24,396 nt of DNA from a virus: IMG/VR virus record IMGVR_UViG_3300038696_000018, positions 1-24,396 of that record. One strand, written 5' to 3'. Under the pieces are notes generated by a model. It had not been told where the DNA came from, did no database searches, and was given only the letters and a program-made list of their open reading frames with translations. A program made the position numbers and the translations under genes. This document shows positions 3,353-8,898 of the stretch, in pieces. Every line of letters starts with the position of its first letter. Within the stretch, counting starts at the first letter, position 1.

Positions 3353-4849
3353 ATGGCTCGTATCTGGTACCCAGACGCCGAAGTGCGCGATCTCATAGAG
3401 GGTCCGCCCAAGCGTATTCTTACAGAAAAAGATTTTGACCTGCATCAAATTTGGATGGCCGACCTGACATTGCGCAGGAAGGCGGCGATTCTTGCCGCCG
3501 AAATGGGCCTCGGAAAAACGGGCGCGGTTCTCCACGGCATGATAGAATTGCTCAAACGCGGCCATATTAAAAAGTGGCTTGTTATAGCGCCTTTGCGCGT
3601 GGCCGAGGAAACATGGCCCGACGAAATGTGGAAATGGGACTTCGCCCGGGAATACACGTATCGCCCGATACTCGGCAACGCGGCCCAACGTACCGCCGCC
3701 CTGTCCGATCCAGCCCCGATACACTTTATCAACCGAGAAAACCTTAAATGGTTGTGGGTAAAGCTGCGCAAAGATTGGCCGTACGACGGGCTAGTGTACG
3801 ACGAATCGTCCCGGCTAAAAGCGGGCAAGAAACGATCCGCCATAACTAAACGGACTGACAATAACGGAACTGTTACAACTTCGGGCGGTAAACTTAATGA
3901 GTTCGGGTCACTGGCGCAGGCCCGCGAGGCGGGCAAGTTTAAGCGCGTTATCGAAATGACCGGGACACCCGCTGCTTCCGGCCTCGCCGATCTCTGGGGT
4001 CAAATGTATCTGATCGACGGCGGGCACCGCCTTGGCGCAGATCGTAAATCTTTCATGTCGCGATGGTTCGACGAAGGTAAGTATGACCGAAAGATAACAC
4101 CCAAGGACGGTGCCGAAGAGGAAATCATGGACTTGATAAAAGACGCCATGTTCTCTTTGAAAGAGGAAGACCACCTGACAGGTAAACTGCCGCCGCTTAT
4201 GAAGCACGAACGATGGGTCACGCTACCTGAAAAAGCTATGGCCACGTATCGCGAACTATCCAAAGAATTTTGCCTAGAAGAATACGACGTAGCGGCTGTA
4301 AATAACGGCGTTCTGGCTAACAAGCTGCTACAGCTTTCGAACGGTTCTATCTACGACGTTGACGGCAACGATTGCCATATCCATGATCGGAAGCTGGAAG
4401 AGTTAGAGGCGATCCACCACGGCGCGGGTGGCCGCCCTATGCTTATCGCGTACAGCTTCCAGTTCGATAAAAAGAGAATCCTAGAGAGGTTTCCCAAGTT
4501 CCGGGTCTTCGGCGAGACCGATCACGACATGCGCGATTGGAACGACGGCAAGATACCCGGTCTGTTGGTTCACCCGGCAAGCGCCGGGCACGGAATGAAT
4601 TTTCAGTTTGGCAGTAACATAATGGTCTGGTACGGTCTAACTTGGAGCCTAGAACTGTTTTTACAATTCAACAAACGAATCCACCGCCGAGGCCAAGAGG
4701 CCGACCGCGTTCACCAGTATTTTATATTGGCCAAGGGGACGTATGACGAAAGGCAGTTCGAAGCCCTGTACGAAAAAGGTGTGAACCAGACGAGCATAAC
4801 GGATCGGGTCCGCGTCATGCAGGACGATATGAAAAAGGCATTAAGATAA
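3353..4849 (+). CDS. SNF2-like superfamily 2 DNA helicase/translocase
   Basis: This 498-residue protein has the full superfamily 2 motif set. Motif I (Walker A) is AEMGLGKT with G54-K55-T56; motif II is YDESS (D150, E151), a DEAH-like box; motif III is TGTP (residues 203-206); motif VI is RIHRRGQ (R442 to Q448), the SNF2/RapA-type arginine finger region. The order N-terminal ATPase lobe then C-terminal helicase lobe is complete with no truncation. Such phage proteins act as DNA translocases or branch-migrating helicases in replication and recombination. The direct neighbourhood of the VRR-NUC nuclease suggests they process the same DNA structures. The start has gagga upstream (gaggaatagaccatgg). 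The stop overlaps the next gene's start (TAATG), suggesting coupled translation with the small terminase. Confidence 0.93.
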   Translation: MARIWYPDAEVRDLIEGPPKRILTEKDFDLHQIWMADLTLRRKAAILAAEMGLGKTGAVLHGMIELLKRGHIKKWLVIAPLRVAEETWPDEMWKWDFAREYTYRPILGNAAQRTAALSDPAPIHFINRENLKWLWVKLRKDWPYDGLVYDESSRLKAGKKRSAITKRTDNNGTVTTSGGKLNEFGSLAQAREAGKFKRVIEMTGTPAASGLADLWGQMYLIDGGHRLGADRKSFMSRWFDEGKYDRKITPKDGAEEEIMDLIKDAMFSLKEEDHLTGKLPPLMKHERWVTLPEKAMATYRELSKEFCLEEYDVAAVNNGVLANKLLQLSNGSIYDVDGNDCHIHDRKLEELEAIHHGAGGRPMLIAYSFQFDKKRILERFPKFRVFGETDHDMRDWNDGKIPGLLVHPASAGHGMNFQFGSNIMVWYGLTWSLELFLQFNKRIHRRGQEADRVHQYFILAKGTYDERQFEALYEKGVNQTSITDRVRVMQDDMKKALR

Positions 4850-5517
4850 TGGCAGACGAATTAGCCGATCTACTCGGCGGCGAGCCAGAGGTAGAACACG
4901 TTACAAGCCGTCGGACCGCACGACTGGAGCGCGCCCGCGCAACGCTTGATTCCCCGCCAAGCTACGACCCTATGACTCTGGAACACGCTATGAAAGGCTG
5001 GTCTGCCACACAGATTAGTAAGGTCTTGCGCATGGACCTCGCACAAGTTAAACGCCGCCTAGCCCACGTCACGCCGATGTCGGGCGCTAAGAACGCCGCC
5101 AAGTACGATATTAAAACGGCCATGCCGCACCTCGTCGATCCCGTTGTCAGCGTCGAAGAGTATATCAAGGGCATGGACCCCAAGAACCTACCTGTCCAGA
5201 TGACCGAGGGTTTCTGGCGCGGCGAAGAGAAGCGTCTAAAGACACTGGCGCTGGCCGCGCAGTTGTGGCCGACCCCCACGGTGCTAGAGGGGTACGCGAC
5301 CATATTCAAAATAGTGCGCGACCAAATGGCCCTCTGGCTGGATACAATGGATGAGTCCGACGCGATGTCAGATAAACAACGCCAGACCGCCGCCCAACTT
5401 ATAACGGCTCTGCAAGAGGAAATTATGAAGGAACTCCGGGTTTTCACCGAGAATAACGCGACTCGATCCGAACTCGCTTTCCTAGAGGGGCGCTTAGATG
5501 CAATTCAGCCCGATTAA
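4849..5517 (+). CDS. Putative terminase small subunit (DNA recognition, Nu1 position)
   Basis: This 222-residue protein lies immediately before the large terminase gene and overlaps it by 20 bases, the usual place for the small subunit. Residues about 44-74 (TLEHAMKGWSATQISKVL, then RMDLAQVKRR) read as a helix-turn-helix, as expected for a protein that binds the packaging site. Residues about 110-220 look mostly helical and charged, consistent with an oligomerisation or large-subunit-binding region. I do not recognise close sequence similarity to lambda Nu1, so the call rests on position and the helix-turn-helix. Its start codon overlaps the helicase stop, so the packaging genes seem to be read from the same transcript as the replication module. 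An alternative is a phage regulatory DNA-binding protein. Confidence 0.65.
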   Translation: MADELADLLGGEPEVEHVTSRRTARLERARATLDSPPSYDPMTLEHAMKGWSATQISKVLRMDLAQVKRRLAHVTPMSGAKNAAKYDIKTAMPHLVDPVVSVEEYIKGMDPKNLPVQMTEGFWRGEEKRLKTLALAAQLWPTPTVLEGYATIFKIVRDQMALWLDTMDESDAMSDKQRQTAAQLITALQEEIMKELRVFTENNATRSELAFLEGRLDAIQPD

Positions 5518-8500
5518 CTTTACGGATGAGTTGACTATGGAGCAACTAATGCTTCAGGTCGCCGAGGAGTCGCGCCCGACCGAGCAGTTGACAGTTATTG
5601 GCGCTGCCGAAAAATACACGAGGATTAACAACCCCGGATCGTACGTCGGCCCCTTTGACGGCGGGTTTACGCCGTACATGGTAGAGCCTACGAATCTCAT
5701 GGCCAGCCGTGAGTTTACACAGATGTCTTTGGTTGGCCCGGTCCAGTGTGGGAAAGCCTTAGACGTAGATACGCCTCTTCGGACGATCTCCGGGTGGACG
5801 ACCATGGGGAAAGCCCGAGTCGGGGACTGCGTGTTTGCGCCTAACGGCCAGACGACTAAAGTGGTTGCGGCTACCGAATACCAATATGGCCGATCTTGCT
5901 ACCGAGTAGCCTTTAGCGATGGCTCGGAACTTGTGGCTGACGCAGACCATCTCTGGGTTGTGAGAAGCATACACCGAACCGACTTCGAAACTCTGACCAC
6001 TTCTGAAATACTAGCCCGGGGCGTGGTCTCTCGGAAACAGTCGGTTTTTACTCTGCCGCCACACGGGCCTTTACAGACTCGCAATTCTCGACCCCTTTAC
6101 GCGGACCCATATCTCCTAGGGTATTGGCTCGGCGACGGGTGCAGGCAGTCCGGGTATTTGACAATTGGCCGGGATTACGTGGCCGATGCCACGAGGCAAT
6201 TGACTAAACGCGGCGTGTCTCTAAAAGAGATTGCGAACACAGGCCAACGCGCCCCGCGTTTTTACGTCCAAAAGACACGTCAAACTAAACATTTCCTATG
6301 GCAGCTACAGGCGCTTGGTTTGCGCGAAAACCTAAGACGGGCCGAAAAGCGCATACCTACTCAATATCTCGACGCCGATGTCGAATCTCGGCGAGAACTT
6401 TTGCGCGGCCTAATGGATTCAGACGGCACTTGTCGGGGACGCCGCGCCGTCTTTTCAAGCTGCGAACACGAATTGTCGCTACAGGTTTTTAGATTGGCGC
6501 AGTCTCTTGGGTATCGGCCTAGCCTAAAAACAAACAGAGCGTCGTTAAACGGGGTTCGTAAGAAAGACCGTCACCGAGTATCGTGGACTTTCGAATGTTC
6601 GCGCGACGTATTCGCACTAGATCGAAAAATCTCCAGAGGACAGACCGCGACTACGCCTCGCATTTCCCAAACACAGTGTTTGCGAATCACATCTATACGG
6701 CCAGTGGAGTCCCGCCCCGTGAAGTGCATACAGGTTGATTCACCTGACAGTATGTATCTAGCGGGCCGTGGCCTAGTTCCCACGCATAACACGCAAATGT
6801 TTAGTTCGGGGCTTACATACACTGTTAAAGTGGAGCCCAAAGACATCACACTATACCAGATGACTCGCACAGCGGCGGGCGATTTCGCGATCTCGAAAAT
6901 TGATCGTCTGCACAGAGACAGCCCTGCCGTCGGGCAGATGCTTTTACCGGGTAGCGCTAGCGATTCCCAGTTTCGTAAGATGTATCGCAACGGCGTTCTG
7001 CTTCGCGTGTCATGGCCTGCGCCAACAGAACTCGCGGGTAAGTCCGTCCCCTTTGTGTTTCTGACAGACTACGACCGTATGCCGCAAGACATCGGCGGCG
7101 AAGGCCCGCCGTTCGATTTGGCGGCTAAACGTACGACCACGTACCGCCGCAACGGCATGGCCGTGGCCGAGTCGACTCCGTCATTTCCCGTCACCGATCC
7201 ACGTTGGCAGCCGAACGCGGATCGACCGCACGAAGCGCCGCCGTGCCAAGGTATTATCGGCCTCTACAACCGTGGCGACCGCCGCCGCTGGCTCTGGAAA
7301 TGCGTCAGTTGCAAACTGCCGTTCGAACCCGATTTTAGTCTGCTAAAGTATCCCGCCTCTACCGATTTTATGGAAGCCGCAGAGGCCGCGTACATGGGTT
7401 GTCCGCACTGCGGGCAGATATACGAACACGGTGAAAAGAACGACATGAACCTCGACTATGCCCGTTGGATAATCGAAGGCCAGAAGTGGCTAGAGGATGG
7501 CTCCGTCGTGGGCAAAGCCCGCCGATCAGACATGGCTTCGTTTTGGATTAAAGGCCCAGCGGCCCGGTTCCTAGAGTGGAAGACCCTAGTGTTTGAGTAT
7601 TTGACGGCCATGGACGAGTTCACCCGCACGGGTAACGAGAAGCCGCTGCAAACTACGGTCAACACGCAGCAAGCCTTGCCGTATATCCCGAAAAGCCTAG
7701 AGAGTCTCCGCGTGCCCGAAGACTTAAAGACTCGCGCCACAGACCTCGGCGAGAGAGTTGTCCCGCCGACAGTCCGTTTTCTAGTCGCCACAGTCGATAT
7801 TCAGAAGCACCGCTTTGTTGCCCAAGTTCATGGCCTAAGCGAAGGCGGCGACATCACAATTGTAGATCGTTTTGATATACGTTATTCTAAGCGACCCGAA
7901 ACGGAAGGTGGCAAAGGTTTCTCGTGGGTCAAGCCGGGCGCGCACCCCGAAGACTGGAATTTGCTAATCGAAGGGGTGCTTTTGAAGACGTACCCGCTGG
8001 CCGACAATTCTGGACGGCACATGCAGATCAAAATGACCCTGTGCGATTCAGGTGGCCAAACAGGTGTGACCGCCAACGCGTACAGTTTCTATAAGCGCTT
8101 GCGATCTCCGCCAGAAGCAAACGACCAAATACCCGAGACCCTTATGCCAGACATGCCCCCCGGTTTGCACAATCGCTTCCTACTTGTCGCGGGCCGTCCG
8201 ACGGAATCAGCGCCGCGTTTGCGCATTACTTGGCCCGATTCAGGTCGTAAAGACCGTAACGCGGGCGCTCGCGGCGAAGTGCCTTTGGGTATCCTAAATT
8301 CGGACCGTCTGAAGGATCAACTTGATAAACGCCTAGACCGTACGACGCCGCGCGGCGGGCGTATCAACTTCCCGCTTTGGCTCGACCATAATTTCTACGC
8401 GGAACTTTGCGTCGAGATCAGAGACGATAAGGGCAAATGGGGCAACCCTAACAACTACCGGAACGAGAGTTTCGATCTGTTGACTTATTGCCTCGCGGCC

Positions 8501-8677
8501 TGCATACACGACTCGATTAAGATGGAGAGACCTGATTTTTGGGGCGATCCGCCAAGCTGGGCCACGGAATGGGACGCGAACGATTTAGTGTTCAACCCCG
8601 TTACGGACCCAGACCGGATGGGCGGCGTCAAAAAAGAGAGTTTTGACTTTAGTAAACTCGGCGAGGATTTAGCGTAA
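5498..8677 (+). CDS. Terminase large subunit (GpA family) interrupted by an in-frame intein
   Basis: The precursor is 1059 residues. Removing the intein (residues 87-431) leaves 714, within the normal range for GpA-type large terminases. The motor domain has its P-loop split: QCGK (ending K86) before the intein and TQMF (from T432) after it, rejoining as GPVQCGKTQ. The Walker B region reads VFLTDYDRMP, followed by GGEGPPFDLAAKRTTTYR, a GpA-family signature. Four cysteines (C602, C605, C635, C638 of the precursor) form a probable zinc ribbon between motor and nuclease parts. The nuclease part shows ATVDIQ and LCDSGG, both with candidate metal-binding Asp residues. Role: ATP-driven packaging of DNA into the procapsid and cutting of the concatemer. 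It overlaps the small terminase gene and ends in TAATG with the W-like gene. The protein cannot bind ATP normally until the intein is spliced out. Confidence 0.95.
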   Translation: MQFSPINFTDELTMEQLMLQVAEESRPTEQLTVIGAAEKYTRINNPGSYVGPFDGGFTPYMVEPTNLMASREFTQMSLVGPVQCGKALDVDTPLRTISGWTTMGKARVGDCVFAPNGQTTKVVAATEYQYGRSCYRVAFSDGSELVADADHLWVVRSIHRTDFETLTTSEILARGVVSRKQSVFTLPPHGPLQTRNSRPLYADPYLLGYWLGDGCRQSGYLTIGRDYVADATRQLTKRGVSLKEIANTGQRAPRFYVQKTRQTKHFLWQLQALGLRENLRRAEKRIPTQYLDADVESRRELLRGLMDSDGTCRGRRAVFSSCEHELSLQVFRLAQSLGYRPSLKTNRASLNGVRKKDRHRVSWTFECSRDVFALDRKISRGQTATTPRISQTQCLRITSIRPVESRPVKCIQVDSPDSMYLAGRGLVPTHNTQMFSSGLTYTVKVEPKDITLYQMTRTAAGDFAISKIDRLHRDSPAVGQMLLPGSASDSQFRKMYRNGVLLRVSWPAPTELAGKSVPFVFLTDYDRMPQDIGGEGPPFDLAAKRTTTYRRNGMAVAESTPSFPVTDPRWQPNADRPHEAPPCQGIIGLYNRGDRRRWLWKCVSCKLPFEPDFSLLKYPASTDFMEAAEAAYMGCPHCGQIYEHGEKNDMNLDYARWIIEGQKWLEDGSVVGKARRSDMASFWIKGPAARFLEWKTLVFEYLTAMDEFTRTGNEKPLQTTVNTQQALPYIPKSLESLRVPEDLKTRATDLGERVVPPTVRFLVATVDIQKHRFVAQVHGLSEGGDITIVDRFDIRYSKRPETEGGKGFSWVKPGAHPEDWNLLIEGVLLKTYPLADNSGRHMQIKMTLCDSGGQTGVTANAYSFYKRLRSPPEANDQIPETLMPDMPPGLHNRFLLVAGRPTESAPRLRITWPDSGRKDRNAGARGEVPLGILNSDRLKDQLDKRLDRTTPRGGRINFPLWLDHNFYAELCVEIRDDKGKWGNPNNYRNESFDLLTYCLAACIHDSIKMERPDFWGDPPSWATEWDANDLVFNPVTDPDRMGGVKKESFDFSKLGEDLA
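5756..6790 (+). mobile_element. Class 3 (WCT-type) intein with LAGLIDADG homing endonuclease, in the TerL P-loop
   Basis: The intein is 345 residues, from Ala (gcc at 5756) to the terminal Asn (aac at 6788), with Thr as the first C-extein residue. The start, ALDVDTPLRTISGWTTMG, is a standard splicing block A with Ala in place of the usual Cys/Ser. Class 3 residues are all present: Trp at the end of block B (DADHLW, intein W67), Cys in block F (VKCIQVDSPD, intein C324), and Thr before the last His-Asn in block G (GLVPTHN, intein T343). The endonuclease part has two dodecapeptide motifs, LLGYWLGDG (intein D127) and RGLMDSDG (intein D223), both with the catalytic acid intact. The reading frame is unbroken, so both splicing and homing look functional. 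The insertion lies exactly between Lys and Thr of GKT, the most conserved point of the ATPase. Confidence 0.93.
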
Positions 8678-8898
8678 TGGCCCAGACTATGACCCTTCAA
8701 CAACAATTGGACTTCGCTCGTGCGAAATACTTCGAAATGATTTCGGGCCAGACCGTTCGCGTCTTCGTGGACCAGAACGGCGAACGCGTGGAATACAAGG
8801 CGGGCGACATTGACAAACTAGCTTCGTATATTCGGCAACTGGAGTTCAAAGTGGACCCAACCTCGCAAGCTGGACCAATGGGAATCGCGCTATGCTAA
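8677..8898 (+). CDS. W: Head-tail joining protein, lambda gpW family
   Basis: This 73-residue protein matches lambda gpW in length and pattern: an N-terminal helix (LQQQLDFARAKYFEMISG), a short beta hairpin (VRVFVDQNGERVEY) and a second helix (DIDKLASYIRQLEF), then a tail with GPMGIA comparable to RGPAGF of gpW. In lambda, gpW binds the portal after DNA packaging, stabilises the DNA and creates the site for FII and the tail. Its place between the large terminase and portal genes is the lambda position. It starts within the terminase stop (TAATG), and its end overlaps the portal start by 7 bases. Confidence 0.92.
   Translation: MAQTMTLQQQLDFARAKYFEMISGQTVRVFVDQNGERVEYKAGDIDKLASYIRQLEFKVDPTSQAGPMGIALC

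Follow-up and report, generated by a model that had tools for sequence, protein, structure and literature searches.

A class 3 intein with a LAGLIDADG endonuclease domain in the P-loop of a gpA-family phage terminase, as assigned from sequence

The P-loop of a phage large terminase should be needed whole, and in the locus described here it is parted by 345 residues. What is this insert, and how might the terminase be restored? The locus lies in the window, i.e. the whole stretch of 24,396 nucleotides analysed, which comes from the contig of an uncultivated virus with no isolate. In the translation of the window, one ORF (5498-8677, plus strand, 1059 codons) runs through the locus without stop or frameshift, and the insert takes up residues 87-431 of its 1059-aa product (codons 5756-6790, 345 aa). 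On its N side stands ...LVGPVQCGK, and its own end PTHN is followed by TQMF. Lys86 is the last residue before the insert and the Walker A Thr the first after it; the two exteins when joined give 714 aa. The earlier note on this DNA had placed the insertion between Lys and Thr of the P-loop (GPVQCGK/TQ) and had expected a 714-aa terminase and a 345-aa intein as products; its coordinates are exact and both lengths agree with the sequence. Table 1 lists the features of the locus.

Table 1. Positions of the terminase and predicted intein features in the window.
Feature	Position	Strand	Basis
Small terminase subunit gene, directly upstream, 20-base overlap with the terminase ORF	4849..5517	+	phrog_141 terminase small subunit, DUF1441
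N-extein, terminase residues 1-86, ending ...LVGPVQCGK (Walker A to Lys)	5498..5755	+	Gapless alignment to empty-site terminases
Class 3 intein, 345 aa, with LAGLIDADG homing endonuclease	5756..6790	+	
Block A, beginning with Ala1, without N-terminal Cys/Ser nucleophile	5756..5797	+	Ala in 93/100 relatives
Cys48, equivalent of redox-active Cys48 of M. smegmatis DnaBi1	5897..5899	+	Same residue number, alignment to 6bs8
Block B, Asp62-x-x-His65 and Trp67 (W of WCT)	5921..5962	+	
LAGLIDADG homing endonuclease domain (about residues 116-304)	6101..6667	+	Pfam LAGLIDADG_3 and Hom_end above cut-off; PI-SceI top fold match
First LAGLIDADG motif (DPYLLGYWLGDG)	6104..6139	+	
Second LAGLIDADG motif (LLRGLMDSDG)	6398..6427	+	
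Block F, Cys324 (F:4, class 3 branch-point nucleophile)	6710..6760	+	Cys in 100/100 relatives
Block G, Thr343 (G:5), His344, Asn345	6767..6790	+	
C-extein, from Thr+1 (Walker A Thr); GpA ATPase and GpA nuclease domains	6791..8677	+	Pfam PF05876, PF20454

The exteins match the GpA ATPase (PF05876, E 2.5e-52) and the GpA nuclease (PF20454, E 1.3e-53) of Pfam, as well as phrog_15, terminase large subunit. By these matches the host is a lambda-gpA-family large terminase with a Walker A motif; the earlier naming of a large terminase is upheld by the two domains and by the alignment with empty sites. The terminases of S-ESS1, AchV4, PS6 and YSD1 (S-ESS1 and chi-like phages) run gapless across K86/T87, so the insert is precise and the empty site scarless. 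Since the intein itself aligns within the phrog_15, phrog_36964 and phrog_19299 profiles, these terminase families already include intein-bearing members.

Judged by gene order, the virus is a Casjensviridae-like siphophage. The local order is SNF2 helicase, TerS, TerL, putative joining protein, portal and S49 protease, which is also found in S-ESS1 and YSD1. The isolates nearest in C-extein are Casjensviridae, among them Synechococcus virus S-ESS1 (50%). Between terminase and portal, positions 8680-8892 give a weak match, below cut-off, to a phage head-tail joining protein family.

Class of the intein and its proposed splicing route

Class 3 inteins, a minority class, are defined by the WCT residues at B:12, F:4 and G:5 (PMC3196547). 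In the window the triplet is complete (Trp67, Cys324 and Thr343); position 1 is Ala1, without a Cys or Ser nucleophile, and the intein ends in His344-Asn345 followed by Thr+1. When compared over 100 relatives, His65, Cys324, His344 and Asn345 are invariant, while Thr343 is found in 99 and Trp67 in 98. A tblastn search with the intein gave matches in 777 phage records, 630 of which cover at least 80% of it. The AlphaFold2 model (pLDDT 91.4, pTM 0.90) consists of a HINT splicing domain and a LAGLIDADG endonuclease; PI-SceI is the best fold match for the whole model, and 6bs8/6rix best match the splicing domain with TM about 0.84-0.89 depending on the target. The Pfam Intein_splicing model gave no match on the window, and therefore it misses this intein. 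Taken by residue set, family and predicted fold, the insert is a class 3 intein.

Fold alone does not separate the intein classes (PMC7664689), and so it could be asked whether the intein belongs to class 1 or 2 and has its W, C and T residues by coincidence. We regard this as extremely improbable. Ala1 excludes class 1 chemistry, block B reads Asp62-x-x-His65 and not TxxH, and the block F Cys does not vary in any relative. Also, the phmmer matches to the solved class 3 DnaB inteins 6bs8, 6rix and 6riy range from E 9e-30 to 1e-27, whereas the class 1 intein gp41-1 scores only E 6e-4, which places the window intein closer to class 3.

Almost certainly, then, the locus holds a class 3 LAGLIDADG intein in the P-loop of a gpA-family terminase that splices to a 714-aa product and spreads by homing, with its chemistry, splicing and endonuclease activity read from its class. 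Following the class 3 reaction steps in PMC5222942, Cys324 in block F would attack the Lys86-Ala1 peptide bond after translation to give a branched thioester, and the N-extein would then be handed to Thr+1. Asn345, aided by His344, would cyclise and free the intein, and ligation of the exteins would yield the 714-aa terminase with its P-loop intact. With Lys and Thr of Walker A held apart by the insert, the unspliced protein would be expected to have no ATPase activity, and packaging to depend on splicing; the same argument was made for mycobacteriophage TerL (PMC5050341).

This route would fail if the insert were a HINT element that has decayed, or can only cleave, so that splicing is lost and the terminase is left broken or cut in two. 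There is a precedent in one published class 3-like intein that is a pseudogene, though that one is without the block F Cys (PMC3196547). In the window all catalytic residues are kept in a single open frame with a confident predicted fold, and the exteins are full-length and conserved on either side. The C-terminal splicing segment is also 78% identical to that of the closely similar IMG/VR intein L003. A degenerate element is thus very unlikely, if a little less so than a different splicing class.

Endonuclease domain and distribution of filled sites

The domain within the intein keeps the acidic residues Asp127 and Asp223, has neither stop nor frameshift, and matches PI-SceI and I-DmoI in fold. 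Between L003 and the window it is 56% identical with both Asp kept, and the N-extein is also 56% identical. Synonymous sites between the two are saturated, which precludes dN/dS; together with the equal identities of endonuclease and N-extein, this points to constraint and not decay. From its sequence, the endonuclease is apparently intact. In terminase alleles that have no intein it would cut close to the P-loop codons, and the intein would spread by homing. LAGLIDADG domains occur in 82.5% of published class 3 inteins (PMC7891396), and the presence of such an endonuclease inside the intein explains its presence at the P-loop site. The earlier account was right as to class, site and host, with W67, C324, T343, His-Asn and Thr+1 all present and exactly numbered, but it overlooked this endonuclease.

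A search for class 3 relatives at the same terminase site had been proposed, and such inteins do exist there. Acidovorax phage ACF1 has an intein at the GpA site, as do the IMG/VR contigs L003/L004, L008, L022, L087 (partial), L097, L099/L100 and L141. Related inteins thus break about eight GpA-family terminases in IMG/VR, and that of ACF1, at the identical codon boundary. The site is also filled in the more distant GpA terminases of L016, L035 and L080 in IMG/VR. Of 56 terminases retrieved from IMG/VR with the C-extein, the majority have an empty site. Among phage records, a single match covers 80% or more of the precursor, and ACF1 is the only such case among the matches listed. When IMG/VR was searched for exact matches to a degenerate DNA pattern of the intein-free allele (GPVQCGKTQ), none was obtained. 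For nearly all class 3 inteins collected from terminases, DnaB and other ATPases, the preceding residues are GK and the next one is T or S.

The identities of inteins and exteins disagree among the GpA hosts, as would be expected for lateral movement. For example, L022 and L035 have inteins 52.5% identical and exteins only 28.4% identical. Two separate invasions of the GpA site were considered: the tree splits the window and L003 from ten other GpA-hosted inteins, but the AU test does not reject one clade (p 0.28). Trees built separately from the splicing domain and the endonuclease favour neither one nor two invasions.

Paired inteins were observed in other hosts. Two class 3-like inteins, three residues apart, occupy one terminase P-loop in L172-L174, L176 and L184 (on the same contigs as L051, L052, L072, L062 and L055). 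The first is a 147-aa mini-intein with a Pro start and a Met-Asn end (PRQ|PLEDNT...PTMN|CGK), and the second is a LAGLIDADG-bearing class 3 intein (CGK|ALALDT...PTHN|ST). The mini-intein is found alone in L175 and L177-L183. The DnaB of L164/L186 and of L163 carries two inteins, one of class 3 in the P-loop and, downstream of it, one that starts with Cys and resembles class 1, as in M. smegmatis.

Cys48 and a possible redox switch

In M. smegmatis DnaBi1, H2O2 links Cys48 to the catalytic Cys118, and Cys48 was termed 'non-conserved' (PMC6195587). The window intein has its equivalent outside the splicing blocks. Of the 100 class 3 inteins in the sample, 92 have this Cys; when the sample is thinned at 60% identity, 59 of 67 have it. 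By source, the counts are 70/71 in viral contigs, 16/16 in genomes and 6/13 in phage records, the last being inteins mostly picked to span divergence. The search patterns behind the sample do not include Cys48. At position 48, the class 1 intein gp41-1 has Ser, and by eye the DnaBi2 of L164/L186 and that of L163 have Val and L187 has Thr. The conservation is to be taken as a lead and not a rule, since the 100 inteins over-represent those akin to the window intein and four sequences serve as class 1 control; in AceL NrdHF, which splices, the sole other Cys is at position 81.

It is conceivable that, beyond splicing, the intein is retained as a regulator: oxidation would form a Cys48-Cys324 disulfide, and splicing and packaging would pause. 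Cys48 and the block F Cys of M. smegmatis DnaBi1 behave in this way (PMC6195587), and the wide occurrence of Cys48 in the window intein and its relatives would fit. On the other hand, Cys48 may be structural, as all Cys48 mutants of DnaBi1 are splicing-deficient (PMC6195587); it is missing from seven of the 13 phage-record inteins, AceL NrdHF splices as described, and an intein with a homing endonuclease can persist without any regulatory role. Retention as a regulator is therefore unlikely, and we are equally doubtful that Cys48 is an additional feature common to class 3 inteins, forming a built-in redox switch with the block F Cys. If it were, oxidation could pause the maturation of a phage terminase, and of P-loop ATPases with such inteins generally. 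As Cys48 is widespread in the class 3 inteins sampled, the generality of the DnaB redox switch becomes testable.

Comparison with known inteins

The novelty attached to this intein by the earlier note was overstated. Inteins at the K/T site of mycobacteriophage TerL were published in 2016 (PMC5050341), about 1,701 class 3 inteins were published in 2020 (PMC7891396), and ACF1 and several IMG/VR contigs have the same site of the GpA family occupied. One literature collection gave no paper pairing inteins with Casjensviridae or an Acidovorax phage. In mechanism the window intein is ordinary, one more of the known P-loop class 3 inteins. What it adds is a clean and full-length example of class 3 in the catalytic P-loop of a terminase from the gpA family, hosts that lie outside the survey of mycobacteriophages. 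With it one could ask if DNA packaging is gated by class 3 splicing.

When compared with its closest counterparts, L003/L004 in IMG/VR, the window intein differs in sequence only: the intein is 62% and the terminase 63% identical, with identical flanks GPVQCGK/TQ. The ACF1 intein (MZ547449, QXV72285) shares with it the GpA terminase, the K/T site, the WCT set and the LAGLIDADG domain. It is about 41% identical to the window intein, has Cys in place of Ala at position 1, and reads WLGNG (Asp to Asn) in its first LAGLIDADG motif. With Cys at position 1 and a complete WCT set (L002 460-1512), the ACF1 intein has the nucleophiles of class 1 and class 3 both present.

The mycobacteriophage TerL1-a inteins likewise stand in a large terminase between the Walker A Lys and Thr, but their host belongs to the terminase_1 family while that of the window is GpA; in that survey, terminase inteins were found only in terminase_1, terminase_6 and a terminase-like protein (PMC5050341). 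The closest solved structures are two class 3 inteins with matching catalytic residue positions, M. smegmatis DnaBi1 (6bs8, E 9e-30), which also occupies a P-loop site, and M. chimaera DnaB1 (6rix/6riy). Both differ from the window intein in being mini-inteins without endonuclease, in their host DnaB, and in a +1 Ser. The M. chimaera intein has the triad C124-H65-T143 and W67 in 145 residues (PMC7664689), and the window has C324-H65-T343 and W67 in 345 residues, with the same distances from either end (Cys -21 and Thr -2 from the intein end).
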